Of a stretch of 64,000 bases of DNA, positions 48,464-63,686 are shown piece by piece. The stretch spans positions 1 through 64,000 of the forward strand of contig JACQEP010000010.1 of the NCBI GenBank assembly GCA_016200485.1, written 5' to 3'. The translations under genes and the position numbers were made by a program. Numbering within the stretch: position 1 is the first letter of the stretch; each line of letters opens with the position of its first letter. The notes beneath the pieces are model-generated. The model was not told the origin of the DNA and made no database searches. It was given only the letters and a program-made list of their open reading frames with translations. This stretch comes from Gammaproteobacteria bacterium (lineage in GTDB: Bacteria; Pseudomonadota; Gammaproteobacteria; Tenderiales; Tenderiaceae).

Positions 48464-49102
48464 TTACAGCTTGGCTGAAAGATACTCAGCCAACGCTTCG
48501 ATTTCCTTGTCACTCAGCTTCTTGGCAATTGCCGCCATCATACCGGCCGGGTCATTGGCACGGGCACCATCGCGGAATTCTTTCAGCTGCTTCATCACGT
48601 AATCACGGTGCTGGCCACCAATTACCGGGAAGACAGAGACCGTTTCGGACTTACCTTTACCATTTTCGCCATGGCAATTGACGCAGGCATAAACCCCTGA
48701 CTGCGGATTACCCTGGGTAAAGATCTTTTCTCCAGCGGCCACCAAATCCTGTTTCGGTTTGGTAATTTGTCCTTTCATCTTCTGTTGCGAGAAATAGGCT
48801 GCAATGTCCTTGGCATCTTCTTCCGAAGCCACGGTCGCCGCCATGCCGGCCATGGTGTCATTGTTGGCACGATGACCACCTTGGAAGTCTTTTATCTGCT
48901 TGGCGATGTAACCGGCATACTGACCGGCCAGACGCGGAAATGTCGCATCCTCGCTGTTACCATCCGCTCCGTGGCAACCGCCACACAACGCGGATTTGTC
49001 CGCGCCTGCTTTGGCGTCCGCAGCTTGCGCCAGAGACGCCCCACCCATTGCCAAGACGCCCGCAGCGATTAATGCACTGAACTTGTTACGAACTGCTTTC
49101 AT
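48464..49102 (-). CDS. cytochrome c4, diheme
   Basis: 212 residues from the ATG giving MKAVRNKFSALIAAGVL, a signal peptide cut after AQA. Two class I cytochrome domains with CGGCHGADGNS and CVNCHGENGKG, each with a later methionine ligand (DTMAGMAATV, AGMMAAIAKKL). Tandem c4 type, a periplasmic or membrane-associated electron donor to terminal oxidases. A polypeptide with 12 more residues upstream is possible but lacks a ribosome binding site. Confidence 0.92.
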   Translation of the reverse strand: MKAVRNKFSALIAAGVLAMGGASLAQAADAKAGADKSALCGGCHGADGNSEDATFPRLAGQYAGYIAKQIKDFQGGHRANNDTMAGMAATVASEEDAKDIAAYFSQQKMKGQITKPKQDLVAAGEKIFTQGNPQSGVYACVNCHGENGKGKSETVSVFPVIGGQHRDYVMKQLKEFRDGARANDPAGMMAAIAKKLSDKEIEALAEYLSAKL

Positions 49103-49281
49103 ACGGTCCCCCCCTAAGAGACGATTGATACTGCTCACGCTCTGCCCAGAGAATACGCTGGGAGATCACTCAGGTTTTATAGCAACCTCGGCGGGTAGCC
49201 GTCAAATCGGCGATAAAAAGGAATTTAAAAACCATCTTTACGTTACCCAACCCCAAGCAATTGCCATACTAATAAAATGGC

Positions 49282-50055
49282 CTATTCGAGTGGAATCAAT
49301 TTTGCGCCGATCAACAAGTCCCGAACGAACTGGCCAGGGATGGCATAGGAAATTCCGCTCGGGTGTTCGATGGCATTTTCCTTGCTCCCTTTGACAAACA
49401 CACTATTGACGACCCCGATCACCTCACCGGTCTCCATATCAAACACCGGACTACCGCTATTGCCAGGATACGCCGTCGCATCGAGCTGAAACACCATAAA
49501 TGGCGATCGCATGCGCTTAATCAACTTCGCATTTAACTGGCTATCCGAATTTACGGGCATGATGATGGGAGTAATGGCAGAAATCATCCCCCGATGCGTT
49601 ACCGGGCGCAACCCGAGCGACTCCCCAAGCGGAAATCCGGTAAAGGCATAACTCTCACCCTCGCGGACGTGTCGGCTATCGCCCAGACTCAAGGCGGGCA
49701 ACGGACTATCGGAAAATTTCAACAAGGCAAGGTCATGATCGTCATCCCTGGCAATCAACGTTGCCAGGCGCATGTACCGCTCACCCTCATCCGGAATCAG
49801 CACCGCCAGTGACTCCTTCTCCGCGAATTCGGAAACGATATTGTGCGCATTGGTAATCACATGCCGACCATCCGCCACCACAAAACCCGTACCCACCAAT
49901 CGCGTTGCCGGACTACGAATCGCCTGGTGGGTACCGACGCCCACGATTGAGAGTTTGACTCTCGCAAGCGTGTCTGGAAGCGCCGCTTGCGCCACGCCAT
50001 ATTCAAAAAAGAACAGCGCCAAAATTCCCAGCCAGGACAGAATTTGTTTTATCAT
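49282..50055 (-). CDS. periplasmic trypsin-like serine protease
   Basis: 257 residues from the ATG giving MIKQILSWLGILALFFFEYGVAQA, a signal peptide. Catalytic triad: histidine in VITNAHNIV, aspartate in DDDHDLALLKF, serine in YPGNSGSPVFD. Only the protease domain, no PDZ, so not DegP. Its start is 11 bp from the start of the divergent lyase gene, so their promoters must lie inside each other's coding DNA or upstream starts are used. A longer frame to 50139 is open but overlaps the lyase gene. Confidence 0.82.
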   Translation of the reverse strand: MIKQILSWLGILALFFFEYGVAQAALPDTLARVKLSIVGVGTHQAIRSPATRLVGTGFVVADGRHVITNAHNIVSEFAEKESLAVLIPDEGERYMRLATLIARDDDHDLALLKFSDSPLPALSLGDSRHVREGESYAFTGFPLGESLGLRPVTHRGMISAITPIIMPVNSDSQLNAKLIKRMRSPFMVFQLDATAYPGNSGSPVFDMETGEVIGVVNSVFVKGSKENAIEHPSGISYAIPGQFVRDLLIGAKLIPLE

Positions 50056-50065
50056 CGGAGCTTCC

Positions 50066-53000
50066 ATGTCATCCATTAAACCTATGACCGTCACCAGTGA
50101 ACGCGACTCCCCGAGCCTGCTGCTGCTCCTGGCCATCATAGGGTATCTGTTCCTGATTGCCTATGGCTCGCTGTCACCCTTCTCAGGGTGGGATGGCCAA
50201 CGGTTTCAACTGGCACGCTTGGTCGCCGAATTCTGGCCCACCTATTTCACCTTCGCTGATTTTGTCACCAATTTCGTGGCCTATGTCCCGCTCGGCCTGT
50301 TATTAACACTGGCCTTGGTGTATCGAACATCCTTTCTGCGCGCCATCCTCTATGCTACTGCAAGTGCAGGCATCCTCAGCATCGGCCTCGAAATACTGCA
50401 ACTGATGTTACCGGAGCGCATCGCCTCGCTCTTCGATGCTTTCCTCAACATCAGTGGTGCACTCTGTGGTGCAATAATTGCCACTGTCTTTTCGCGACGA
50501 TCCTTCGTCGGCCAATCACTACGCCGTTTTTATAAAAAACATTTCGTCTTCACCCCTGCGAGTACCGTCGGCCTTTCTGCGCTGACGTTATGGGCGCTAT
50601 CGATTATCGTTCCCACTCTGCCAATACTGCTGTACGGTCTTTATCGACAAACGCTTCCGGAAATGGGGCTGGATCTCGCCTGGGGCGAGCTCAATATTAC
50701 ACAAACGGCAATTATCAGCCTTCAAATCATTGCCTTGGGCCTGCTTGCATCAACGTTACCGCAGCGCCAACTTATCAGTGGCATCTTATTCACAACCATC
50801 GCCTCCATCGCAATCCTGCTCAATATTGCACTCAAGACTCATGCCATCACACTTACCGAATTAGGCGGCAGCATTAGCGGCATCATAGGTGTCTTTCTCA
50901 TTCTCGGCTTTGGCAAACGGCCCAAGCTCGTCATTACCACCGTATGCCTGGTCGTTGCCTATGCGCTCAAGCAATCTCAACCCGGACCACTCGTCACTGA
51001 CAGCCTCTACGCATTCAACTGGATTCCTTTCAAGGGACAAACCGATCTTAGAGGCATTATCAATTTTCTCGAAGAAGCCTGGATCTTTGCCGCCATCGCC
51101 TATTGTGCAGCAGCTACCTGGCGCGGCCGCAGTCTGTGGTTACCCTCCATCACCGGCGTTATCGCTATTGGCTTTCTTGCCTTCTCATTGGAATGGAAAC
51201 AACAATTTACTGCCGGGCGCTATCCCGACATTACCGATATCTTAGTGGTCGTTGGCGCCTGGTTGACCGCCTGGCTCTATCTGCGTCTGGGAAAAAGCTC
51301 GGCCCATTCTGCCGCCCGCAACGACCTGACAAGACAAACAATTACGCCACGCATAGGACGCTCCACCCTCGCGCAAATCATGATGATTTTTTTCGTTGGC
51401 ATTGGCGTGTGGTATTCAACCCCGCCCGGCCCAGCCCCTGCCGCGGAAACTCCCCACTTTGGCGGTTATCCTCAACCTGCAGATCTGGCACCCGTTTCAC
51501 TGCCAAATTTTCATTTCGAACATCCACGTCTGCCCGCGCCGAGCGCGGATGACATCAAACGCATTAAACGTGATAACCCTGACTTTATTAAATCCCAACA
51601 AGAAGCCACCAGGCAAGGCAATCTTTACTCACAGATATTGACCGCCTACATTAACCCGGAACCCGAAACACTAGACAAACTCCATCATCGATTAATGAGT
51701 CTGAAATTCTCCGACCGCGGACATGAGCAGGTCAAACCTCTGGCCCAAGCCTATGACTGGCTCTACCCTCACTGGAACGAACGCCAACAACTAACTTTGC
51801 GCAACAAACTGATGCAGGGATGCGAATATGAAATCGATCTTCTTCGCAGCGAAGAACTCTCGCCCTACAATGTTTATCTTTATAATGCACCATTACAGGC
51901 CCTGGTTGCTTGCACCATTGCCGTTTATGGCGACCACCATGAAAGTGAGTTAGTGATGCGCTTTACTCACGATCTCTGGAAACATCATGTTTTACCGGTC
52001 TGGCAACAAGTGATGGGCAAAAACGGCGGTTGGCACGAAGGCGGCGAATACGTCGGCATCGGCATCGGCAGCGCCATTTATCAAGTTCCCAACATGTGGC
52101 GCAAAGCCACTGGCGAAGATTTATTTCAAACTGAACCGGGAATTCGCGGCTTCCTGGATTTTCTTGTCTATCGCATCCGCCCTGATAACACCCATATGCG
52201 GCTCGGCGATGCAGGATGGTTTGATCGTGATTCACCAGATCGATTAGCTCTGGCGCTGGAATATCGCCATGCCGCAGCCTATAGCCTCGCCAATCCACCG
52301 CAACGCCCCACTCCCACCAGTTGGCCTTGGGGACCGCTGACCGACAATACGCTCTACAATCCGAAAGCGATTGAGAAACTACCACTGACAAAATATTTTG
52401 ACGGCACTGGTTTGGTCATCATGCGTAGCGGATGGAAACCTAACTCCACCTACATCACGTTCAAGGCGGGCGATAACTTCTGGTCGCACAGTCATCTCGA
52501 TCAAGGCGGCTTTACTATTTACAAAGGCGGTGAACTCGCCATCGATAGTGGCTACTATGGCCCGAGCTATGGTTCGGATCATCATATGAATTACACCTAT
52601 CAAACCATCGCCCATAATCTGATCACCGTCACCGATCCTGATGACATCGTACCTATTCCAAATCGCAAACAACCCAACAGACCTCGCATCATCGCCAATG
52701 ATGGTGGTCAACGACGCATTGGTTCTGGCTGGGGCATCGATCCTGCACCCATCAATCTGCAAGAATGGCTCGTCAAGCACGATACTTTCCATACGGCGAC
52801 GATTGAAAAAATCCAAGAAGAGAACAACATCACCACCATCATCGCCGACCTCACGCCCGCCTATACCAATGCCATGTCCGGTAGCGGCACATTCTCGCAT
52901 CGCACTCGCCGGGTTGAAAATTACAAGCGCTTGTTCGCTTATGATCGGGAAAGCGATGTCATCGTGGTTCTTGATCTGGTGACCGCCACTCATCCAGAGT

Positions 53001-53521
53001 TTCGCAAACGCTGGCTATTACATAGCCAGGACCGTTTCACCATCACTGAACAGGGCTTTACCACTGCCATCGCGCCCGAAAACCGAACCGGCCACGCGGG
53101 CGGCGTCCTCGAAGGTGTCTTTTTGCTTCCTGCGCAACATCTTGTGAATACAGTAGGCGGGGATCGTTTTGAATTCTGGGTAGGTAATCAGAATTTTGAT
53201 GAGGCAGGCACCCTGATCAAAGAAATGAGCGTCAGAAAGCCGCTGGCTGAACCAGGTCGTTGGCGGATTGAACTCTCCCCGGCCAAACCGCAGCCCACGG
53301 ACACCTTCCTTACTGTCCTTCGCCCAAACATTTCAAACACCACAGCCTCTGAATTTAAGGCTCAATTACTCAGTCAGACCGAACAACAAATTGATTTTGA
53401 AGTAACATCAAAGAATGTTACTAAACAGTGGCAAATCAAAATGTCATCGAATCGAAGCTTGATTGAGACTATTGTTACCAGCAATCCCCCTAATGACGTG
53501 ACCACAGCTCCAACCCAATAA
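50066..53521 (+). CDS. VanZ-like repeat membrane protein fused to heparinase II/III-like lyase (copy 1)
   Basis: 1151 residues from the ATG at 50066 (GGAG 6 nt upstream). Residues 1-455 are about a dozen membrane helices with VanZ-like units: AYGSLSPF, FVTNFVAYVPLGLLL, GLEILQLMLPER (E109); a second unit that has lost the glutamate; and SLEWKQQFTAGRYPDITDIL (E376). After the last helix, residue 460 on is a lyase-like domain: LPNFHFEHPRLPAPS, MGKNGGWHEGGEY, FWSHSHLDQGGF (His808 region), AHNLITV. The domain should lie in the periplasm. I infer polysaccharide cleavage or trimming; the substrate is unknown. Thirty bp before copy 2. Confidence 0.85.
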   Translation: MSSIKPMTVTSERDSPSLLLLLAIIGYLFLIAYGSLSPFSGWDGQRFQLARLVAEFWPTYFTFADFVTNFVAYVPLGLLLTLALVYRTSFLRAILYATASAGILSIGLEILQLMLPERIASLFDAFLNISGALCGAIIATVFSRRSFVGQSLRRFYKKHFVFTPASTVGLSALTLWALSIIVPTLPILLYGLYRQTLPEMGLDLAWGELNITQTAIISLQIIALGLLASTLPQRQLISGILFTTIASIAILLNIALKTHAITLTELGGSISGIIGVFLILGFGKRPKLVITTVCLVVAYALKQSQPGPLVTDSLYAFNWIPFKGQTDLRGIINFLEEAWIFAAIAYCAAATWRGRSLWLPSITGVIAIGFLAFSLEWKQQFTAGRYPDITDILVVVGAWLTAWLYLRLGKSSAHSAARNDLTRQTITPRIGRSTLAQIMMIFFVGIGVWYSTPPGPAPAAETPHFGGYPQPADLAPVSLPNFHFEHPRLPAPSADDIKRIKRDNPDFIKSQQEATRQGNLYSQILTAYINPEPETLDKLHHRLMSLKFSDRGHEQVKPLAQAYDWLYPHWNERQQLTLRNKLMQGCEYEIDLLRSEELSPYNVYLYNAPLQALVACTIAVYGDHHESELVMRFTHDLWKHHVLPVWQQVMGKNGGWHEGGEYVGIGIGSAIYQVPNMWRKATGEDLFQTEPGIRGFLDFLVYRIRPDNTHMRLGDAGWFDRDSPDRLALALEYRHAAAYSLANPPQRPTPTSWPWGPLTDNTLYNPKAIEKLPLTKYFDGTGLVIMRSGWKPNSTYITFKAGDNFWSHSHLDQGGFTIYKGGELAIDSGYYGPSYGSDHHMNYTYQTIAHNLITVTDPDDIVPIPNRKQPNRPRIIANDGGQRRIGSGWGIDPAPINLQEWLVKHDTFHTATIEKIQEENNITTIIADLTPAYTNAMSGSGTFSHRTRRVENYKRLFAYDRESDVIVVLDLVTATHPEFRKRWLLHSQDRFTITEQGFTTAIAPENRTGHAGGVLEGVFLLPAQHLVNTVGGDRFEFWVGNQNFDEAGTLIKEMSVRKPLAEPGRWRIELSPAKPQPTDTFLTVLRPNISNTTASEFKAQLLSQTEQQIDFEVTSKNVTKQWQIKMSSNRSLIETIVTSNPPNDVTTAPTQ

Positions 53522-53550
53522 CCTAAATTGCATACCGTCCTCCAAGCTCA

Positions 53551-56500
53551 ATGATGCCTCATAAACCAACCCGCTATTTTCTGCTCTGGCTTGCTTGGGC
53601 TGTATTGATTATTTACGGCAGCCTGATGCCGTTCGAAGTACGACCTCACACTCTGACCACAGCCATCGAGCAGTTTCGTCATATCCCTTATCTAAACCTT
53701 GGCATTGTCTCTCGCGCCGACTGGATTGCCAATATTCTGCTTTACATACCGCTCGCCTATCTTGGCGTAACGTGGTTAAGCCAGTTACGTTGGTTGCCCC
53801 GTTTTTTTGCTTTGATTATCCCGGCAGGGCTGGGATTTGCGCTTGCCGTTGGTGTCGAGTTCACACAAATTTTTTTCGAACCCCGAACTGTTTCACTCAA
53901 TGATTTAATTGCGGAAAGCATCGGCACATTGCTCGGTGTCGTGCTGTGGTCAGCCGGTCATTCCCGGCTTGCCAGCCTCACCTCAGCGTTAGTCCGTCCC
54001 GGCCCAGCGGCAGTAACCGCGGGATTAACACTCTACTCACTCGCCTATTTGAGCTTGGCACTGTTTCCCTATGACTTTGTTATTTCGATGTCTGATTTAC
54101 AATGGAAGCTGCTTAACGGCAACTACGGATGGGGCATCGATAATTGTGGATCGGTGATGCGTTGCGGCAGTCAATGGCTGGCGGAAGCAGTCGCCGCGTT
54201 GCCTCTGGGGTTGTTGCTGATTCGACTGCTACAACACGGGATGCTCCGTCCTGCATTCGGATTCCTCATCGCTGCGGGAATTGGCACAAGCATCGAAGCT
54301 GCTCAATTTCTGATTAGCTCCGGTGTCAGCACCGTCACCGCTGCCCTTGCCAAAGCTGCGGGCATCGGCCTGGGGCTTTGGTTGCGCGATCCACCCTCAC
54401 CACAACTAGCGCAATATCATGCCCGCTGGTTGCGACCCGCACTGTTACTCGCATTTTTTCCGTACCTTGCGCTTGCTGCATTGCTTAACGGCTGGACCAA
54501 CGCGTCATGGAACGATTTTGAAATCGTCCGCAACAATCTCAGCGCGCAACATTATCTGCCTCTTTATTATCATTACTTCACCACTGAGACCGAAGCCGTT
54601 GCCAGCCTCGTTGCTCAGACGGCGATTTATTTGCCTCTCGGGATCGGCTTCTGGCTCTGGCATGCCAGCGGTGCAACCCCTCTCCGACAACCGCCACTAT
54701 TCGGTCTATTATTAACAACTGCTGTCACTGCATTCATTATTGAGGCAGGAAAGCTGTTCATTGCTCATTCACATCCCGATCCCACCAACATTTTGATTGC
54801 ACTTGGTGCAGCCTGGCTGGGACGACGTCTATGCCAATGGCTGGCGGAATCTATTCGCGCAACTGCGAGAAATTCAGATCGTATACCTTCGGCGATCCAT
54901 TTTCCACGTAAGGCATTAATCGGAATCGGCCTCGTTATTCTGTCACTCGGCGGCCTTGGTTTGGTGCTGATCCAGGAAACTGAGGATTCCGAAGCCGTGG
55001 TCATGGCGCGCATCAAGCACGAATATCCGGCACCGGAATCGCTACCCCCAGCCTCATTACCGAATTTCCGTCTCGATCACCCGCGTCTTCCTGCCCCCTC
55101 GATGCAGGATATTATCCGTCTAAAATCCGAGAACCCGCGATTCATCGACATGAATCGCGCACAAGCCAACGGCGGCCATGGCAATCTCAATGCCGCCATC
55201 CTCATGGCCTATGTCGAACCCGGAAGCCAGGATCTGGATGCTGTCTTCAATCAATTGATCGCCATAAAACCCAGCTGGCGCGGCCACGAGCAAGGGAAAC
55301 TGTTTGCACTCGCCTACGACTGGCTTTATAGCGACTGGAGCGAATCACAACGCCAGCAATTACGCGACAAACTGGCTCACGGCTGTAATTATCTGATCGA
55401 CGTCATCCGCAGTGCGCCGTTCTCGCCCTATAACGTCACCCTCTACACTGGCCCGATCCAGGCGCTGATGGCCTGTAGCATCGCGCTCTATAAAGATGAT
55501 TCCCGCGGCGAGCCGGTGATGGCCTTCACTGCCGATTTGTGGCAAAACCGCGCCCTGCCTGTGTGGCGGCAAGTGATGGGCAAAAACGGTGGCTGGCACG
55601 AAGGCGCCGATCACGTCGGCGAAGGCATCGGCCAGGCGATCTATCAACTCCCCAACATGTGGCGTAGCGCCACCGGCGAAGACTACTTCAAGACCGAATC
55701 CGGAATCCGCGGCTTTCTCGATTTTCTGGTGTATCGCATTCGCCCCGATGGCGCCAAAATGCACCTTGGTGATAGCGGTTCATTCAATCGTGACGCACCC
55801 GACCGCCTTGCCCTGGCCCTCGAATATCACCACACCGCTGCCTATAGCCTGGCTACGCCTCCTAAAGACCCGGTGCCTACCAGTTGGCCATGGGGGCCGC
55901 TATCTGACAACAGGCTCTACGAACCCAATGCCATAACTCAGCTACCGCTCACCAGATACTTCGACGGCATCGGCCTGGTCGTCATGCGTAGCGGCTGGGG
56001 ACCCGATGCCACTTACATCACCTTTAAGGCGGGCGACAATTACTCATCGTTCACACACCTCGATCAAGGCAGCTTCACGCTTTACAAAGGCGGTGCCCTC
56101 GCCATCGACAGCGGCCTGTATGACGACTATGGCACAGACCATCACGTGAATTATGCCTACCAAACCATTGCTCACAACGTCGCCACCATCACCGATCCTG
56201 ACGAGAGTGGCGCCATTTCCAACAACGACTTCAACTCGGCACCCCGCCCCATCGCCAACGATGGCGGTCAGCGACGTGTTGGCGGCGATATCGAAATCTA
56301 CCCCAATCCGTTGGATATCGCAGAATGGAAGGCCAGGCGCGATATTTATCACACCGGCAGCATCACTCATCTACAAGAAAAAAATGGCGTTGTATCCATC
56401 ACCGCCGATATCACTGCCGCCTACACCAACAAGTTCTCAGGTGAAGGAACACTCTCCAGCCGCACATTGCGCGTCAACCGCTATCTGCGCACCGTCATCT

Positions 56501-57084
56501 ATGACCGGATTAATGACCTGTTTCTGGTCTACGACTCCATCACCAAAACCAATCCCTCATTCACAAGCCGCTGGCTCATCCACTTTCAGGAACAGCCCGT
56601 GTTGACAGCACCCAATCAATTTCTGGCGAGCGTGTTACCGGATAACAACCCCAAACATACGGGCGGCATACTTGAAGGAAAAGTATTGATCCCTGGTGCA
56701 CCTGTGATCAAAGCCATTGGCGGTCCAGGCAAGGAATTTTGGGTCGATGGCAAGAATTACGATAACAACGGAAAACTTTACAAAATCCTGAATCGTGGCA
56801 ACCGTAAACAAATCACCGAACCCGGTGACTGGCGAATTGAAATCACAAACGCAAACGAAGAGTCACTCACAGACAACTTTCTTGTCGCCTTAAACCTGAA
56901 ACAAAACCGGTCAGACCTCACTCCCTCGATTCAATGTTCGCAAGGAGGTGGCCTGACCGATTGTATTGTTCGCGGAAAACGGGAAATGAAATTGCAAGTT
57001 AAATGGCCACCGGAAAAGCCGGTGGCTTATGGCGATAGTGTCGCTACCTCATTACCAATTTATGGCGTCCATGCCATAAATTGA
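53551..57084 (+). CDS. VanZ-like repeat membrane protein fused to heparinase II/III-like lyase (copy 2)
   Basis: 1177 residues, paralog of the previous gene along its whole length. Three VanZ-like units are plain: IIYGSLMPFEV with GVEFTQIFFEP (E103), LPLGLLL with SIEAAQFLIS (E249), LPLGIGF with IIEAGKLFIAH (E398), spaced about 148 residues. The lyase domain starts near 495: LPNFRLDHPRLPAPS, MGKNGGWHEGADH, FTHLDQGSF (H836), AHNVATI. The two lyase domains are closely similar, membrane parts less so. The last 28 residues come from a segment with a hairpin (GCCACCGG...CCGGTGGC at 57006-57026) just after a 102-bp duplicated stretch, so the C-terminus is probably secondary. Confidence 0.87.
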   Translation: MMPHKPTRYFLLWLAWAVLIIYGSLMPFEVRPHTLTTAIEQFRHIPYLNLGIVSRADWIANILLYIPLAYLGVTWLSQLRWLPRFFALIIPAGLGFALAVGVEFTQIFFEPRTVSLNDLIAESIGTLLGVVLWSAGHSRLASLTSALVRPGPAAVTAGLTLYSLAYLSLALFPYDFVISMSDLQWKLLNGNYGWGIDNCGSVMRCGSQWLAEAVAALPLGLLLIRLLQHGMLRPAFGFLIAAGIGTSIEAAQFLISSGVSTVTAALAKAAGIGLGLWLRDPPSPQLAQYHARWLRPALLLAFFPYLALAALLNGWTNASWNDFEIVRNNLSAQHYLPLYYHYFTTETEAVASLVAQTAIYLPLGIGFWLWHASGATPLRQPPLFGLLLTTAVTAFIIEAGKLFIAHSHPDPTNILIALGAAWLGRRLCQWLAESIRATARNSDRIPSAIHFPRKALIGIGLVILSLGGLGLVLIQETEDSEAVVMARIKHEYPAPESLPPASLPNFRLDHPRLPAPSMQDIIRLKSENPRFIDMNRAQANGGHGNLNAAILMAYVEPGSQDLDAVFNQLIAIKPSWRGHEQGKLFALAYDWLYSDWSESQRQQLRDKLAHGCNYLIDVIRSAPFSPYNVTLYTGPIQALMACSIALYKDDSRGEPVMAFTADLWQNRALPVWRQVMGKNGGWHEGADHVGEGIGQAIYQLPNMWRSATGEDYFKTESGIRGFLDFLVYRIRPDGAKMHLGDSGSFNRDAPDRLALALEYHHTAAYSLATPPKDPVPTSWPWGPLSDNRLYEPNAITQLPLTRYFDGIGLVVMRSGWGPDATYITFKAGDNYSSFTHLDQGSFTLYKGGALAIDSGLYDDYGTDHHVNYAYQTIAHNVATITDPDESGAISNNDFNSAPRPIANDGGQRRVGGDIEIYPNPLDIAEWKARRDIYHTGSITHLQEKNGVVSITADITAAYTNKFSGEGTLSSRTLRVNRYLRTVIYDRINDLFLVYDSITKTNPSFTSRWLIHFQEQPVLTAPNQFLASVLPDNNPKHTGGILEGKVLIPGAPVIKAIGGPGKEFWVDGKNYDNNGKLYKILNRGNRKQITEPGDWRIEITNANEESLTDNFLVALNLKQNRSDLTPSIQCSQGGGLTDCIVRGKREMKLQVKWPPEKPVAYGDSVATSLPIYGVHAIN
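56899..57000 (+). repeat. 102-bp direct repeat, copy A (inside lyase gene 2)
   Basis: Matches 59030-59131 with 4 mismatches and no gaps (offset 2131). Encodes the residues QNRSDL to MKLQV near the C-terminus of the second lyase. Confidence 0.95.
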
Positions 57085-57376
57085 CTCGCTTATGCGACAA
57101 CATCGGTCAAACCTTATCCCCACCAGACTACGCTGGCCGGGTGTTGTATACTGAGGACGAGCTCGCTTTGGCCGATAGGTTATTGAGGCTAGAACTACAA
57201 GAGGGATCCCAGTGGTGGCGCGAACGGGTAGAATACCCGTGGATGGTAACGTGGAATCGATAACGCGTGGCACATAGTGATTTTTTTGGCCACATCATAA
57301 GTTAGACATGAGATTGGTAGACTTTGTAGCGATGCGTGAAAAAAATCGGAATTACATATGGCGTGAGGTCAATTAA
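57085..57376. other. gene-poor gap after lyase gene 2
   Basis: No supported gene in these 292 bp. One frame, ending at 57263, reads EDELALADRLLRLELQEGSQ and looks like the end of a protein whose start is gone; I cannot name it. A 22-codon ORF (ATG at 57308) precedes the DUF4160 gene and is probably not coding. Confidence 0.5.
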
Positions 57377-57637
57377 ATGCCTACGATAAGCATCTTTTAC
57401 GGCATTGTGATTCAGATGTTCTGGGATGAACACGCGCCACCACATTTTCATGCCCTATACGGTGAATATGAAGTACTGATCGACATACGCACCTTAGAAA
57501 CACTCAGAGGCAAAATGCCCCGGCGAGCATTAGCTCTGATACTGGAATGGGCATCGGAACATCGTGAAGAATTAATGGAGGACTGGAACTTATGCGAAGC
57601 CAGACAGACCCCACGCAAGATCCCGCCATTGGCGTAA
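57377..57637 (+). CDS. DUF4160 protein
   Basis: 86 residues. MPTISIFYGIVIQMFWDEHAPPHFHALYGEYE with an HxxPHFHA core is the DUF4160 signature, followed by LRGKMPRRALALILEWASEHREEL. Usually paired with a DUF2442 gene, as here (overlap 46 bp), an arrangement suggestive of a small toxin-antitoxin-like or regulatory pair. Function not established. Confidence 0.88.
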   Translation: MPTISIFYGIVIQMFWDEHAPPHFHALYGEYEVLIDIRTLETLRGKMPRRALALILEWASEHREELMEDWNLCEARQTPRKIPPLA

Positions 57638-57909
57638 TCCCTACTGCCCCATGGCGCGTGGCTGAACTGCGCGTTTTGCCTGCCTACAGGTTATGGATCA
57701 AATTCATCGACGGCACCGAAGGCACTGTTGATATGTCGAAACGAGTAACAAGCAAAGATGCTGGTGTGTTTGCGGCGCTTCGTGATGAAAATCTTTTTGC
57801 TCAAGCGCGTATTGAGTATGGTGTTGTTACTTGGCCAGGCGAACTGGACTTGGCACCTGATGCCATGCATACCGAAATCTCACAGCATGGCACATGGATA
57901 TTGCATTAG
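57592..57909 (+). CDS. DUF2442 protein
   Basis: 105 residues with WRVAELRVLPAYRLWIKFIDG, TSKDAGVFAALRD and VTWPGELDLAPDAMHTEI, the DUF2442 pattern (NE0471-like fold). The start overlaps the DUF4160 gene by 46 bp; a later Met would shorten it to the conserved core but is absent, so the ATG at 57592 is used. Partner of DUF4160. Confidence 0.86.
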   Translation: MRSQTDPTQDPAIGVIPTAPWRVAELRVLPAYRLWIKFIDGTEGTVDMSKRVTSKDAGVFAALRDENLFAQARIEYGVVTWPGELDLAPDAMHTEISQHGTWILH

Positions 57910-57962
57910 AACCTATCTCAAAATTAACGACATGATCGAATTCGCCTATAGTTGGCCATACG

Positions 57963-58040
57963 TTGCGGCTGAGTGATAATCATTGGGAACGGATACGGGA
58001 TCATTTCCCGGAGGAAAACATACCGGAAAGTCCCGGACGT
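57963..58040 (+). mobile_element. IS5-family transposase remnant
   Basis: The frame reads LRLSDNHWERIRDHFPEEN then IPESPGR, the N-terminus of IS5-group (IS1031-like) transposases. Homology ends at 58040 and the frame stops at 58062. No inverted ends or target duplication found. A decayed fragment marking past IS activity in this island. Confidence 0.75.
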
Positions 58041-58137
58041 TGGAGATTTACCTCAGTTAATTAGGGCAGAAGGAATCACTCACCTTCCTCCCCCTGAAAG
58101 ATTTCTCACCGCACCAAATATCTTATCGCGCCAGAGG

Positions 58138-58169
58138 CGCTCCTACAACATCAACACCCCGTAGGAGCG
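58138..58169. repeat. small palindrome GTAGGAGCG
   Basis: Arms CGCTCCTAC and GTAGGAGCG with a 14-nt loop, then GGCTACGCCGCGA, a common short intergenic repeat. The interval 58065-58370 holds nothing else recognisable. Confidence 0.7.
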
Positions 58170-58370
58170 GCTACGCCGCGATTTCAGCCTCGACACATAA
58201 CCTATAAACTCCACAACATAATAACCTATAGATTGCACGGTACCAGCGTGCACCAGAACATCGTGCCGTTCACTGACTTTCTGGCGCGACTCGTCAAGAA
58301 TGGATGAAAGGCAAGGCCTTATTTCAGGACTCCATTCCATAGTCATTGTGGTCTTCGTCATCCACGCTTT

Positions 58371-58689
58371 TACGAATAGCGGGCAGGCAAGGCCGTCTGC
58401 ACCGTCTCCCAACCACATCGAGGTGATGTCGAAGTAGCCGTGCGCGATACGGTTGAGCATTCCCTTCATGTTCCGCCACGGCACGTCAGTGCTTCTCCAG
58501 GAACTCACCATAATTCTGAAGCAGCTTGGTTGCCGCTTCTCCGACGACGATGATATTGAGAATCACCGCTTATTGAGTGCGCTTGTCTGCAAGGAAGTCT
58601 TCTTTGTTCAAGCCTTCAACGTAGTTACACGCCTGTTGCGCAGCTTCCAGTATGTGATCAAGATAGTCGGGTAGACGGTTCCCGCTCAT
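58371..58689 (-). pseudogene. HEPN-domain toxin, decayed (locus 3)
   Basis: The ATG (58687-58689) overlaps the antitoxin stop. Reads MSGNRLPDYLDHILEAAQQA and then FLADKRTQ, a TAA stop at 58570-58572 where CAA would be expected, AVILNIIVVGEAATKLLQNYG, then a frameshift near 58505 into DVPWRNMKGMLNRIAHGYFDI, and another before WETVQTALP. The RNase motif is still recognisable as MLNRIAHGY. One nonsense and at least two frameshift mutations make it a pseudogene. Confidence 0.85.
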
Positions 58690-58967
58690 ACAGGGCGGGC
58701 CTCTGCCAGAACCCTCGCACGAAACTTCGGCGGCAGATCGCCGGGCGTCAACAGATCGACCGGCACACCAAGAAGTTCTTCCAGTTCGATTTGCAGTCCA
58801 CCCAGATCAAACAACATAGCTCCCGGCAACGCATCCACCAGAAGATCAAGTTCGCTATCTGATCCGTGGAGCACAGAGCCAAATACACGCGGGTTGGCGG
58901 TATGAAAACGAGCCGCCGCTTCACGCACTGCTTGACGATGGGTTTCAAGAACTACAGATGGCCTCAT
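58686..58967 (-). CDS. MNT nucleotidyltransferase antitoxin, probably degenerate (locus 3)
   Basis: 93 residues from the ATG at 58965-58967, preceded by AGGAGGGG. Paralog of the locus 2 antitoxin. The active-site region is FGSVLHGSDSELDLLVDA: three residues shorter, and the first aspartate of the SDxD motif is glutamate. LTPGDLPPKFRARVLAEARPV is conserved. The partner toxin is a pseudogene, so selection on this gene is likely relaxed. Confidence 0.82.
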   Translation of the reverse strand: MRPSVVLETHRQAVREAAARFHTANPRVFGSVLHGSDSELDLLVDALPGAMLFDLGGLQIELEELLGVPVDLLTPGDLPPKFRARVLAEARPV

Positions 58968-59029
58968 GAAAGCCCCTCCTGGACACACCATAACCCGGGT
59001 TCAATATAAGCCAACAGCAGGCGACCAGC

Positions 59030-59131
59030 AAACAAAACCGGTCAGACCTCACCCCCTCGATTCAATGTTCTCAAGGAGGTGGCCTGACCGATTGTATTGT
59101 TCGCGGAAAACGGGAAATGAAATTACAAATT
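59030..59131 (+). repeat. 102-bp direct repeat, copy B
   Basis: Same sequence as 56899-57000 at 98 of 102 positions. In the lyase frame it reads on into ISAEGVVTVQKTATIRDKANP before a stop at 59192, a plausible original lyase C-terminus. Confidence 0.95.
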
Positions 59132-59171
59132 TCAGCGGAAGGTGTCGTCACCGTTCAAAAAACGGCAACTA

Positions 59172-59582
59172 TCAGGGACAAGGCGAACCCATAGCTTTCA
59201 CGGTAAAATCCATACCGCCTGTTCCGCAGAAACTATAGCTGCCACCCCCGTTATCCCAAACCCCATAGGAATACGTGCCCCCAGGAGTATAGGTATAGGT
59301 AACTATGGTATTAGCGCCCGATCCCGAAACCGCCCACGTCCCGACTTTCTTTCTAGGATCAATAGGATGGCCATCACCTCTTTTATAATCCCAAAGCTCC
59401 CCGTCGCTATGATGCTCCTCCTGCCAACGATCCCCACCACGGACCGCGCACACCATTTTACCGGTTAACAAGGTACCCAGACCCGCATCTTGAATTTGTG
59501 TAGCAGGCGCATTACAGGCCGCCGTCACCCCTTTAGCAGCAAATGCAAAAACGACCGCACATGCAATTATTGGTAGTTTCAT
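59172..59582 (-). CDS. secreted protein of unknown function
   Basis: 136 residues. Signal peptide MKLPIIACAVVFAFAAKGVTA. The mature part is a small, glycine-, tyrosine- and threonine-rich protein (VTYTYTPGGTYSYGVW and GGSYSFCGTGG) with four cysteines and a C-terminal SPCP. Looks beta-rich. No family recognised. Reads toward copy B of the 102-bp repeat, whose tail overlaps its 3' end. Confidence 0.65.
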   Translation of the reverse strand: MKLPIIACAVVFAFAAKGVTAACNAPATQIQDAGLGTLLTGKMVCAVRGGDRWQEEHHSDGELWDYKRGDGHPIDPRKKVGTWAVSGSGANTIVTYTYTPGGTYSYGVWDNGGGSYSFCGTGGMDFTVKAMGSPCP

Positions 59583-59636: not shown

Positions 59637-59811
59637 GGGGCGGAGGTACCATTGGCACAATAAATTAGCAATGGGTACAAAGGACAAGATAATGATGCCC
59701 TACCCCTCCTAAGCCCCCCAAAACACTATACCAAGTCCCGGATTTTTGGACATTAAATTGAGTTTAGGTTAACCTATATACCCCTGAAGTAGTTCTGGAT
59801 ATTTGGTTTTA

Positions 59812-60630
59812 ATGATCGCAGCCATCAAAAATCTAGTCACCTACCGTGAGCTGATGTTCGCGCTGGCATGGAAAAACATCACCGTGCGCTACAAGCAGGC
59901 CTACCTGGGAATAGCCTGGGCGGTACTAAAGCCGCTAATGCTCGTGCTTATTTTTACCCTGGTGAAGAGCTTCGTTGGCATCGATAGCGGCGACATTCCC
60001 TACCCCATTCTCACCTTCGCCGCGCTCATGCCCTGGATCTTCTTCCAGGAGGCCGCCGCCGAAGGCGTCAACAGCGTAGTGGGTAACGCCAGCCTCATTC
60101 GCAAGATCTATTTCCCCCGCGAGATCTTTCCACTCACCAGCGTTGTCACCAAACTGGTCGAACTGGGTATCAGTTTCCTGATACTGGCGGGGTTAATGGT
60201 CTATTATCACATGACCCCCACGATATATATGCTATGGGTGCCCGTCATCATCGGTTACACGATCCTGGTGGTGCTCAGTATCTCCATGGTCGGCGCCGCC
60301 ATGAATGTCTATTTCCGCGACGTGGCTTCAGCACTGCCAGTGGCCTTTTCGCTGTTAATGTACGCCTCGCCGGTGATCTACCCGCTTACCCTGGTCAAGG
60401 AAAAGCTGCTGGTCAATCAAGCCGCTGGGGAATGGTCGAACGTCCTATATACCGTATACACGCTTAACCCACTTGCAGGCATCATCGACGCCTTCCAACA
60501 CGTGGTACTGCGCGGCCTGCCGCCGGACCTCTCAACAATGTGGCCTGGCATGGTTTTGACCTTAATCTTCCTCCCAATCAGCTACCTGATTTTCAAACGG
60601 GCGGAATCATATTTTGCGGACGTTATCTGA
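59812..60630 (+). CDS. ABC-2 type polysaccharide export permease (Wzm/KpsM-like)
   Basis: 272 residues from the ATG at 59812 (the frame also opens at a TTG three codons earlier). ALAWKNITVRYKQAYLGIAWAVLKPLMLVLIF is the Wzm/RfbA N-terminal signature; ALMPWIFFQEAAAEG and RKIYFPREIFPLTSV follow; six membrane helices. Exports complete O-antigen or capsule chains across the inner membrane with the ATPase encoded 7 bp downstream. Confidence 0.92.
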   Translation: MIAAIKNLVTYRELMFALAWKNITVRYKQAYLGIAWAVLKPLMLVLIFTLVKSFVGIDSGDIPYPILTFAALMPWIFFQEAAAEGVNSVVGNASLIRKIYFPREIFPLTSVVTKLVELGISFLILAGLMVYYHMTPTIYMLWVPVIIGYTILVVLSISMVGAAMNVYFRDVASALPVAFSLLMYASPVIYPLTLVKEKLLVNQAAGEWSNVLYTVYTLNPLAGIIDAFQHVVLRGLPPDLSTMWPGMVLTLIFLPISYLIFKRAESYFADVI

Positions 60631-60637
60631 GCACACC

Positions 60638-61909
60638 ATGGCCGTCATCGAAGTCAATCATGTCACCAAGGAATTCCGTCTCGGCGCCCTGCAAGGCTTC
60701 AGGCAAACCATGCACAACACCCTCGCCCGCTTGCGCGGCGAACATGTGACTGCACGCCCTTTATTCAAGGCACTGGACGATGTCGATTTCAAGGTTGAAG
60801 CGGGCGAAGTGCTCGGCATCATCGGCCACAACGGCGCGGGCAAGAGCACGCTACTCAAGATGCTCGCCAACATCAGCACCCCCACTCGCGGCAGCGTCAA
60901 AGTCAAGGGCAAAGTCGCCCCGCTGATCGAAGTTGGCGCCGGATTGGTCGGCGACCTCACTGGGCGTGAAAATATCTTCCTGAATGGCGCCATCCTTGGC
61001 ATCCCCAAAACCGAGATCAAGAGGAAATTCGACGAAATCGTCGCCTTCGCTGAACTGGAAGAGTTTATTGACACGCCGATCAAGCGCTACAGCTCCGGCA
61101 TGTCGGTGCGCTTAGGATTTGCCATTGCCACCAGTATCGATGCAGACATCTTGATCGTGGACGAAGTGCTGGCGGTGGGGGATCTGGCGTTTCAGCGCAA
61201 GTGCTTTGACCGGATGGAGGATTTGATTAAACAACAGGGTAACACCGTGCTGCTGGTATCACACAACATCCGTCAAGTGGAACGCCTCTGCACTCGCACG
61301 ATACTTATGAATCACGGCAGGATTGCGATGGATGGAGCTCCAAAGGATGTTTGCAACGCCTTTTATGAGGCCAGTGACAAGCAGATTCAGGAAACCAAAA
61401 TCTCCGCCAAAACAGATCGCACAGAATCTAGTGGTGACGTTGAAATCGAGTCCGTGTCAGTTTTCAACATGGCTGGCCAACCAGTCTCTTCTATCGAGTA
61501 CCTTGAAGACGTCGAGTTTCAAGTGACTTATCGAATAAAGAAAACACTCCCGGAACCTATATTCGGGCTTGGTATTCATACAACCGACTTTCTCTACCTG
61601 GCCACCAGCCAAAGCCTTGGCAATCTCTCGCCAGGCAATCTCTCCCCAGGAATCTACACCTTGAGTTACAAGGTTCGCAGCTTCCCTTTTTTACCTGGCG
61701 TTTACTCTCTGCGGCTCGGGGTTGCACTTGCTGGCTCATTTCAACCCATTTTTTATAGCGAGAATGTCATGCCTATTCAGGTTGTTGCCCCCCATATCAA
61801 CCGTGCTGTTGTTTCCGCTCAGCACGAAGGGTTTGTTGCATTGGATGGCGATTGGGGGCTGACTGAAAACAGTTCTGACAAGAAAACAAGCACCGCAACT
61901 TCAGCCTGA
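60638..61909 (+). CDS. ABC polysaccharide exporter ATPase with carbohydrate-binding domain (Wzt-like)
   Basis: 423 residues from the ATG giving MAVIEVNHVTKEFRLG. ATPase: GHNGAGKST, RYSSGMSVRLGFA, ILIVDEVLAVGD, switch histidine LLVSHN. Residues 260-400 form a C-terminal extension with beta-sandwich character like the Wzt substrate-binding domain (VFNMAGQPVSSIEYLEDVEF, LPGVYSLRLGVAL). Such domains select chains by their terminal cap, and a methyltransferase gene follows. Contains a short internal duplication, GNLSPGNLSPG. Confidence 0.92.
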   Translation: MAVIEVNHVTKEFRLGALQGFRQTMHNTLARLRGEHVTARPLFKALDDVDFKVEAGEVLGIIGHNGAGKSTLLKMLANISTPTRGSVKVKGKVAPLIEVGAGLVGDLTGRENIFLNGAILGIPKTEIKRKFDEIVAFAELEEFIDTPIKRYSSGMSVRLGFAIATSIDADILIVDEVLAVGDLAFQRKCFDRMEDLIKQQGNTVLLVSHNIRQVERLCTRTILMNHGRIAMDGAPKDVCNAFYEASDKQIQETKISAKTDRTESSGDVEIESVSVFNMAGQPVSSIEYLEDVEFQVTYRIKKTLPEPIFGLGIHTTDFLYLATSQSLGNLSPGNLSPGIYTLSYKVRSFPFLPGVYSLRLGVALAGSFQPIFYSENVMPIQVVAPHINRAVVSAQHEGFVALDGDWGLTENSSDKKTSTATSA

Positions 61910-61949: not shown

Positions 61950-63686
61950 ATGCGCTCATCACCAAATAACGAATCTCATAAAAACATGGCCAACCTATCA
62001 ATAGATCAGCAAGCCGCATCAAATGCTGCCGATGAAATCAGCAGTCTCTACTATTTTCATGCCCGTCCTGAAATCCTTCAGTTGGTGCCCACATCTGCAG
62101 TCAGAGTATTGGATGTCGGTTGTGGTGCGGGCGTACTTGGTGCAACAATCAAATCGCGACAGTCGGCGGAAGTGCACGGTGTAGAACTAATGAGCGATGC
62201 CGCAAACAAAGCAGCGGGGTCTCTTGATCGGGTCTGGAATCTTCCGATTGAATCAGCCTTGCCAGAGCTTGCCGATGGCTACTACGATTGCATCATTGCG
62301 GCGGACGTACTTGAGCATGTGATTGATCCGTGGGCCACATTGACTGCACTGAAAGAAAAACTCTCGCCCGATGGAAAAATGGTCGTAAGCCTGCCCAATG
62401 TTCAGAACTGGGAAGTTGTTTCCAGCCTGCTTGAAGGTAAATGGGATTATCGAAGCGAGGGCATTCTCGACCGAACCCACCTGCATTTTTTTACGCGCAA
62501 ATCGGTCGAGGAATTATTCTGGAACGCAGGCTTATGTATAGCACACATGGGCACAACTATCAGTGGCCCATCCCTGCCAAATAATTTCGCAAAATTTCTC
62601 CAGAAATGCGGCCTAATGGTCGACTCGTTGGAGCGAGATGCCGAAACATTTCAGTTTCTGGTCGTTGCAGAAAAGCCCAAACATGCCCCTTCGCCACGGG
62701 TCGCTGTCATCATTCTCAACTGGAACGGCAAGGAGGACACCCTTGAATGTTTGGCGTCTGTCGGCCAACTGGACTACCAAAACCATGAAGTTGTCGTCGT
62801 GGACAACGGCTCCGCCGATGACTCGGTCGATGCCATTTCTAAGCAATATCCAGACATAACCCTCCTGCAAACCGGTGCCAATCTGGGTTATGCAGGAGGA
62901 AACAATGTGGGCATTCGCTGGGCACTCGATCACGATGCAGATTTTGTTCTTTTGCTAAATAACGACACCATCGTGCCTCCTGATTTACTGAGCGCGTTCG
63001 TAAGTGCAAAGAACTTATTACCACTCAATTCTGCGCTTGGTGCAAAAATATTATTTTACGACAAGCCAGATATACTTTGGTGTGCTGGTGGCCGTTGGAA
63101 CAGCGGAACTAATGACTTCGAACACATTGGATATGGCCAGACGGATATCACCGAATATAAACGCATGGCAGAGGTGGATTACATAGTGGGCTGCGCCCTA
63201 TTTGCTAGCTCTGCTACATTCAAGGAAGTTGGGCTATTGAACGAAAGTTTCTTTCTTACATACGAAGAGACAGACTGGTGTTATCGGGCAAGAGCAAAAG
63301 GACACAAGTGCTTCTTTGCTCCTGATGCCAAACTTTGGCACAAGGTTTCTTCGTCCTTCGGTGGAGCTGACTCTCCATTAGTTAGCTATTTCATGCAACG
63401 GAACAGGTTGCTTTGGGCAAAAAATCACCTTTCACATCAGGCCATGAACCACCTGCACAAGGAAACCCTTTGCACTTTGCGCCGAATTCTATTACCCCCA
63501 TTAAGTTTGACCAAAGCAGATTTACCCTTGACGAAGAAGTTGCTATGGTCTTTTTCAAGTTGGCTAAAGACGGTCAAGCGAAACATCAACAATCCAACCA
63601 ACAGAGCCATATTAATGGGGTTACGTGATTACTACTTGGGCCGTTTCGGCGATTGTCCGAAGGCCGTAAGGTCTCTGAGTAAATGA
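61950..63686 (+). CDS. SAM methyltransferase - family 2 glycosyltransferase fusion
   Basis: 578 residues. Residues 25-245 are a class I methyltransferase (VRVLDVGCGAGVLGATI, DCIIAADVLEHVIDPW, RTHLHFFTRKSVEELF). Residues 250-540 are a GT2 glycosyltransferase: VAVIILNWNGKEDTLECL, VVVDNGSADDSV, FVLLLNNDTIVPP (DxD-like), and EETDWCYRARAKGH in the rhamnosyltransferase style. Suggests one polypeptide that adds and caps a sugar, fitting a chain-terminator-dependent Wzm/Wzt pathway. Forty bp after wzt. Confidence 0.9.
   Translation: MRSSPNNESHKNMANLSIDQQAASNAADEISSLYYFHARPEILQLVPTSAVRVLDVGCGAGVLGATIKSRQSAEVHGVELMSDAANKAAGSLDRVWNLPIESALPELADGYYDCIIAADVLEHVIDPWATLTALKEKLSPDGKMVVSLPNVQNWEVVSSLLEGKWDYRSEGILDRTHLHFFTRKSVEELFWNAGLCIAHMGTTISGPSLPNNFAKFLQKCGLMVDSLERDAETFQFLVVAEKPKHAPSPRVAVIILNWNGKEDTLECLASVGQLDYQNHEVVVVDNGSADDSVDAISKQYPDITLLQTGANLGYAGGNNVGIRWALDHDADFVLLLNNDTIVPPDLLSAFVSAKNLLPLNSALGAKILFYDKPDILWCAGGRWNSGTNDFEHIGYGQTDITEYKRMAEVDYIVGCALFASSATFKEVGLLNESFFLTYEETDWCYRARAKGHKCFFAPDAKLWHKVSSSFGGADSPLVSYFMQRNRLLWAKNHLSHQAMNHLHKETLCTLRRILLPPLSLTKADLPLTKKLLWSFSSWLKTVKRNINNPTNRAILMGLRDYYLGRFGDCPKAVRSLSK

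Follow-up and report, generated by a model that had tools for sequence, protein, structure and literature searches.

Since VanZ was discovered in vancomycin resistance, no activity has been proven for it, and the release of many exported bacterial polysaccharides from their lipid carrier is still unexplained. For VanZ-1, a family of the lipocone superfamily, a role in handling lipid-linked sugar in exopolysaccharide pathways has been proposed; its signature comprises an Asn in helix 2 (H2), ExxQ in helix 3 (H3) and an Asp in helix 4 (H4), the ExxQ being given as a link between Skillet and VanZ-1 (PMC12419801, eLife 2025). The catalytic residues of heparinase II and related lyase families have also been tabulated (PMC12088678, Table 4). 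Here we describe two adjacent genes, copy 1 and copy 2, that encode a VanZ membrane block fused to a heparinase-II-like domain. They are located in a 64,000-nucleotide stretch of DNA, called the window, from a gammaproteobacterium of the Tenderiaceae (contig JACQEP010000010.1, positions 1 to 64,000).

With a probability of about one half, we read the two products as proteins of the inner membrane that process a polysaccharide which the cell itself exports and which is probably sulfated, contains uronate and is still lipid-linked, with copy 1 cutting the chain and copy 2 binding or tethering it. This reading draws on the architecture, the conserved sites, the fact that copy 2 has lost its lyase site, and the genomic linkage; from these we infer cutting, binding and chain-holding. 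The parts are known, and the VanZ-lyase fusion itself was not found described: a literature search over the texts of openly available papers gave none in which VanZ and heparinase both occur as whole words, and the words lyase and heparin are absent from the main text of PMC12419801. This agrees with the original prediction, made from the letters of the window, which did not recognise the fusion as a described system.

The heparinase-II-like domains

Both domain assignments of that prediction held, with scores above the Pfam cut-offs for Hepar_II_III_C (42.6 bits for copy 1 and 45.7 bits for copy 2, cut-off 24) and for VanZ (62.4 and 64.6 bits, cut-off 30.1), so that the VanZ relation of the N-terminal halves was upheld by profile search. 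DUF4962 was also above its Pfam cut-off in copy 1. The NCBIfam HepB model gave 163.5 bits for copy 1 (E 5e-48), 146.5 bits for copy 2 (E 7e-43) and 140-181 bits for the other members; its equivalog cut-off is 600 bits, which neither copy reaches. By sequence, the closest solved structure is heparinase II of Pedobacter. VIA-align, with matches for copy 1 that span residues 475-1151 (the lyase part, not the membrane block), likewise ranked heparinase II first (2fuq, Z 23.1, 557 aligned residues, root mean square deviation 4.0), followed by other glycosaminoglycan or alginate lyases and human dermatan sulfate epimerase 1 (DS-epi1; 6hzn, Z 19.2). Foldseek agreed for copy 1 (heparinase II, E 8e-19 to 9e-19) and for copy 2.

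By alignment, in which the chain numbering of heparinase II is offset by 25, Tyr257 and His406 of this enzyme correspond to Y662 and H808 of copy 1, and the same Tyr column holds Y365 of Atu3025 and Y390 of exoHep. H202 and E205 of heparinase II would correspond to Y604 and N607 by an indirect mapping via H311 and R314 of polysaccharide lyase family 15 (PL15). Residues H408, D425 and H451, which we take to be the metal ligands of heparinase II, align with H810, D827 and H850 of copy 1, and these columns are invariant in 27 of 27 members (L090 was included from a corrected reading frame). Because the metal ligands map there, the HLDQG and AHN motifs are metal-site motifs. Both motifs, named for the lyase domain in the original prediction, are present, but correspond to ligands of the metal; that they form a catalytic motif was rejected by the alignment to heparinase II.

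Five of the 27 members form one branch (support 100/100), the copy-2 clade. Outside this clade, N607, Y662 and H808 occur together in 20 of the 22 sequences, the exceptions being L013 (His in place of the catalytic Tyr) and L092 (Ala at 607). Conservation of the Tyr and of the metal site, the fold match to 6hzn and the sulfotransferase genes described below would also fit a polymer-level C5-epimerase like DS-epi1, which has the same fold and likewise acts alongside sulfotransferases. We consider this function quite improbable, as DS-epi1 requires His205 (PMC8006597). The aligned position 604, which is also that of the second-base His202 of heparinase II, is Tyr in copy 1, Thr in copy 2 and Tyr, Phe, Gln, Ser, Thr, Ile or Ala across the family, but never His (by alignment via PL15 only; L092 has a His at 602). 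The missing His, as aligned, speaks against an epimerase and also against the handling of both uronic acid epimers in the manner of heparinase II.

All five members of the copy-2 clade have T, S or G for N607, H, V, A or T for Y662 and F for H808. Because the catalytic Tyr and His are absent, copy 2 is unlikely to cut, which corrects the original prediction in this point; copy 1 keeps the pair. Judged from its codons, the clade is under purifying selection despite the loss of the catalytic residues, with a ratio of nonsynonymous to synonymous substitutions (dN/dS) of 0.11-0.18 in the lyase domain and synonymous sites near saturation. The complete genome G004 has the copy-2 form as its sole Hepar_II_III_C protein, indicating that this form needs no active partner there. 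Retention of the fold and the metal site without catalysis could also mean that the soluble domain serves to sense sugar, so that bound exported chain or fragments switch the head-group activity of VanZ on or off. Such a sensor fits the cutting-dead copy 2 best, and fusions of lipocone proteins with extracellular ligand-binding domains have been read as signalling devices (PMC12419801). We find a sensor unlikely, since the catalytic residues are kept in most members and a dedicated signalling partner is not recurrent beside the fusion.

Copy 1 and copy 2 share 39% identity, but a Gallionellaceae protein matches copy 2 at 78%. A recent tandem duplication was rejected because copy 2 is far closer to the Gallionellaceae protein; by these identities the two genes are old paralogs.

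The VanZ membrane block and its partners

The triple repeat predicted for copy 2 was confirmed: Pfam VanZ matches three separate stretches, with Glu at 103, 249 and 398, and the units of this type are homologous by profile-profile comparison of family slices (unit 1 versus 2, E 1.4e-4; unit 1 versus 3, E 8e-6; unit 2 versus the first unit in the other VanZ type, E 3.7e-7). Units 1 and 3 of copy 1 were recognisable by profile comparison (E 1.1e-9), and similarity of its middle unit to unit 1 was not detected (E 0.1). The Glu reported as lost from this middle unit is indeed absent, and it is absent from all fusions with the copy 1 VanZ type, in which the middle unit appears to have decayed beyond recognition. 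The complete VanZ-1 site is found in unit 1, with N61, Q106 and D118 in all members and E103 in all except L019 (Gln). It is not found in all three units, as unit 2 is without the H4 Asp (in copy 1 also without the Glu) and unit 3 without the H2 Asn.

The AlphaFold2 model of copy 1 has 12 long helices in the membrane block and one before the lyase, with moderate confidence (mean predicted local distance difference test score, pLDDT, 72; copy 2, 65). Inside loops are net positive across the family by positive-inside charge analysis, so that the lyase domain would be in the periplasm, as predicted originally, provided that the N terminus is inside.

If the VanZ block were a mere anchor, the lyase could serve the periplasmic clean-up of mis-exported or stuck polysaccharide, like AlgL in alginate export. 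The polysaccharide-gene context and the lyase-type active site of copy 1 agree with this, and AlgL is in the same broad fold list, but far down (rank 50). We regard a mere anchor as doubtful, since it does not need the complete and nearly invariant active site of unit 1, since elsewhere another kind of polysaccharide enzyme is joined to related VanZ blocks, and since copy 2 is maintained though incapable of clean-up.

Of the 369 genomes sampled from the class, 12 (approximately 3%) carry the VanZ-lyase fusion; at a threshold of E 1e-60 it was seen in no other genome of a 398-genome sample of the phylum. At L012, L013 and L014, a VanZ gene divergently adjoins a free lyase gene. A related triple VanZ block is fused to an O-antigen-ligase/Wzy_C-like domain in L094-L100 (Wzy_C E 3.7e-9 in L095, above cut-off); these proteins have about 1100 residues and the O-antigen-ligase/Wzy_C-like domain holds a carbohydrate-binding-like insert. 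The VanZ tree places the copy-2 clade, L007, L090 and L092 together with the Wzy-fused and stand-alone blocks and apart from the copy-1 type (100/100), for which at least one partner exchange is needed. Repeated fusion of the lyase to VanZ is likely on these trees. Several independent fusions are suggested by them and are not claimed here, as a single lyase split by VanZ type is not rejected by the approximately unbiased (AU) test (p 0.118).

Other triple VanZ genes were also observed. The gene for a beta-helix protein with a weak chondroitinase-B-like match overlaps one of them by 4 bp (L045:9347-12249), a possible further pairing of VanZ with a polysaccharide enzyme. Two others (L044:3543-5891 and L047:9063-11486) continue into approximately 360 residues without a Pfam match at E 0.1.

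Locus layout and neighbouring genes

Both frames predicted as adjacent paralogs were confirmed to be open and are separated by 29 bp (Table 1); that of copy 1 is situated within a larger open reading frame (49772-53521). The Wzm gene starts 2.7 kb downstream of copy 2.

Table 1. Features of the VanZ-lyase locus, with positions in the window.
Feature	Position	Strand	Remarks
Copy 1: VanZ block and heparinase-II-like domain, catalytic residues intact	50066..53521	+	1151 aa
Copy 1 VanZ unit 1, complete VanZ-1 site	50117..50488	+	H2 Asn, H3 ExxQ, H4 Asp; signature: PMC12419801
Copy 1 middle unit, degenerate	50543..50905	+	without Glu
Copy 1 VanZ unit 3	50915..51295	+	Glu and Asp retained
Copy 1 final membrane helix ahead of lyase	51359..51415	+	
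Copy 1 heparinase-II-like domain, predicted periplasmic	51485..53518	+	N607, Y662, H808; metal ligands H810, D827, H850
Copy 2: three VanZ units and heparinase-II-like domain, catalytic residues lost	53551..57084	+	1177 aa
Copy 2 VanZ unit 1	53572..53970	+	N61, E103xxQ106, D118
Copy 2 VanZ unit 2	54013..54405	+	E249, Q252; without H4 Asp
Copy 2 VanZ unit 3	54418..54840	+	E398, D410
Copy 2 putative pseudo-lyase domain	55042..57000	+	T633 for Asn, H688 for Tyr, F834 for His; metal ligands H836, D853, H875 kept
Direct repeat, left copy, within copy 2 3' end	56899..57000	+	
Natural 3' end of copy 2, displaced behind the ~2.1-kb insertion	59024..59194	+	
Direct repeat, right copy	59030..59131	+	96% identical to left copy
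Wzm-like ABC-2 permease	59803..60630	+	
Wzt-like ATPase	60614..61909	+	with Wzt_C domain
Methyltransferase and family 2 glycosyltransferase	61950..63686	+	

The 3' end of copy 2 (window 56899-59194) is interrupted by an insertion of about 2.1 kb between 102-bp direct repeats (96%). The insertion carries small genes (DUF2442, DUF4160-like and nucleotidyltransferase-like); the present C terminus of copy 2 consists of about 26 foreign residues and the natural one lies beyond the insertion. Upstream of copy 1, cytochrome c and a trypsin-like protease are encoded on the minus strand (window 48464-50139). Their position is kept in L009, L021, L041 and L042, and that of the protease alone in L010, L043, L087 and L088.

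Exporters and glycosyltransferases recur around the relatives, in support of the predicted link to polysaccharide export. The exporter type, however, varies, with Wzm/Wzt in the flanks in the window, L021 and L089, Wzt in L018 and Wzx in L007, L008, L087 and L088. A fixed tie to Wzm/Wzt was therefore not found (four loci with Wzm/Wzt or Wzt, four with Wzx), and the occurrence of both types indicates that the protein follows what is exported rather than any one exporter.

Additionally, the fusion is associated with sulfation genes. Genes for the synthesis of 3'-phosphoadenosine-5'-phosphosulfate (PAPS) are near the fusion in L007, L017, L018 and L019. Three of the four Sulfotransfer_3 genes of the window genome (four of five including a weak one) are found 15-45 kb downstream of copy 2 (C10:71783-101302), and an adenosine-5'-phosphosulfate (APS)-kinase-like gene is located among them. 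Among the 35 sulfotransferases of the eight genomes in which fusions were mapped, 19 were within 50 kb of the fusion, as compared to 1.26 expected (p 8e-19; where one gene was split into fragments, these were joined manually). Near VanZ-Wzy or stand-alone VanZ genes, taken as a control, this was 1 of 20 (Fisher p 3e-4 versus fusions). Counted by genome, a sulfotransferase was near the fusion in 7/8 and near the control VanZ in 1/9 (p 0.003). On the basis of these neighbouring genes, the chain is probably sulfated in the window genome and in several relatives.

In L007, L017 and L019, the fusion and the APS kinase gene are accompanied by a conserved DHH-family phosphoesterase gene, whose product could recycle 3'-phosphoadenosine-5'-phosphate (PAP), the by-product of sulfotransferases. 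Sulfatase-superfamily proteins, all four without the usual sulfatase motif, are also encoded near the fusion (L040:2-1873, L008:20083-22539, L087:175-2439 and L015:10594-12282). A true sulfatase in the locus was rejected, as L040:2-1873 and its relatives are without the Cys/Ser-x-Pro/Ala-x-Arg motif by pattern, and these proteins were not used as evidence for sulfate. A 1258-residue protein with Ig-like and hydrazine-synthase-alpha-like domains is encoded directly adjoining the fusion at L087:4361-8137.

The closest characterised relatives of the soluble domain are catabolic heparin and alginate lyases, and the fusion could by analogy scavenge glycosaminoglycans or alginate from the environment. 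We consider scavenging highly improbable, since the protein is predicted to be fixed in the inner membrane and not secreted, its neighbours are biosynthesis and export genes, and copy 2 is without the cutting residues.

Proposed processing of a lipid-linked chain and comparison with known systems

If the two proteins process an exported chain as proposed, unit 1 of the VanZ block, as a complete VanZ-1 lipocone in the membrane, would hold or chemically act on the undecaprenyl-diphosphate head group at the periplasmic side. The original idea that VanZ binds lipid-linked sugar matches the published proposal for VanZ-1 (PMC12419801). The heparinase-II-like domain would hang in the periplasm over the same chain. 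Copy 1, in which the Tyr/His pair and an Asn neutraliser are observed, would cut at uronic acid by beta-elimination and thereby trim or release the chain, and copy 2 would most likely bind or tether the chain while its VanZ block works.

Several points weigh against this proposal. The enzymatic activity of VanZ is itself only predicted in the literature (PMC12419801), the models are of moderate confidence (pLDDT 72 and 65), and the control of 20 sulfotransferases is small and of mixed architecture. Uridine-diphosphate (UDP)-sugar dehydrogenases, for the supply of uronic acid, are mostly elsewhere in the genome, and uronic-acid synthesis genes were as a rule not found beside the fusion. L010 and L020 are without polysaccharide genes in the examined flank. 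Altogether, the first observation of tandem VanZ-lyase proteins was confirmed and its interpretation is partly supported.

More speculatively, the triple VanZ block may be a swappable membrane module that grips polysaccharide linked to undecaprenyl diphosphate and either frees it or passes it on, and each pathway would choose its own partner for the block (Wzy/WaaL-like, heparinase-like lyase or lyase-derived binding domain). We give this wider idea a low probability. If true, exopolysaccharide export would have in this module one of its missing enzymes for terminal release, with the copy-2 clade as a natural pseudo-lyase version. The family joins VanZ to an assayable enzyme domain, with forms that by their residues are cutting and non-cutting in one operon, and makes VanZ function directly testable, for example in the cultured strain Aromatoleum tolulyticum ATCC 51758 (L018). 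It also suggests that sulfated polysaccharides occur in bacteria from which such polymers are not known.

Compared with described proteins, the fusion shares the (alpha/alpha) toroid and beta-sandwich with the PL15, PL35 and PL12 lyases (Atu3025, GAGase II and HepC), and its Asn/Tyr/His-type active site is as in PL12 and PL35, but those enzymes are secreted, catabolic and without a VanZ block. With human dermatan sulfate epimerase 1, which acts on the nascent sulfated polymer, it has the fold, the Tyr and the metal site in common, whereas the needed His is not seen at the aligned position. The VanZ-Wzy_C/O-antigen-ligase-like fusions carry a related N-terminal triple VanZ block, but their partner is polytopic and ligase/polymerase-like and sulfotransferases are not clustered nearby. 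Heparinase II of Pedobacter heparinus (HepB, PL21) has the fold, the metal ligands and the catalytic Tyr and His of copy 1 at approximately 20% identity; in contrast to it, both copies fall below the equivalog cut-off (163 and 147 bits) and have no second His (H202), copy 2 is without the catalytic pair, and the domain is membrane-fused and located in biosynthetic loci. Finally, unit 1 shares the H2 Asn, H3 ExxQ and H4 Asp with the VanZ-1 lipocone family, for which an association with exopolysaccharide genes has been reported (PMC12419801), whereas here three such units are arranged in tandem, the later ones degenerate, and fused to a lyase.

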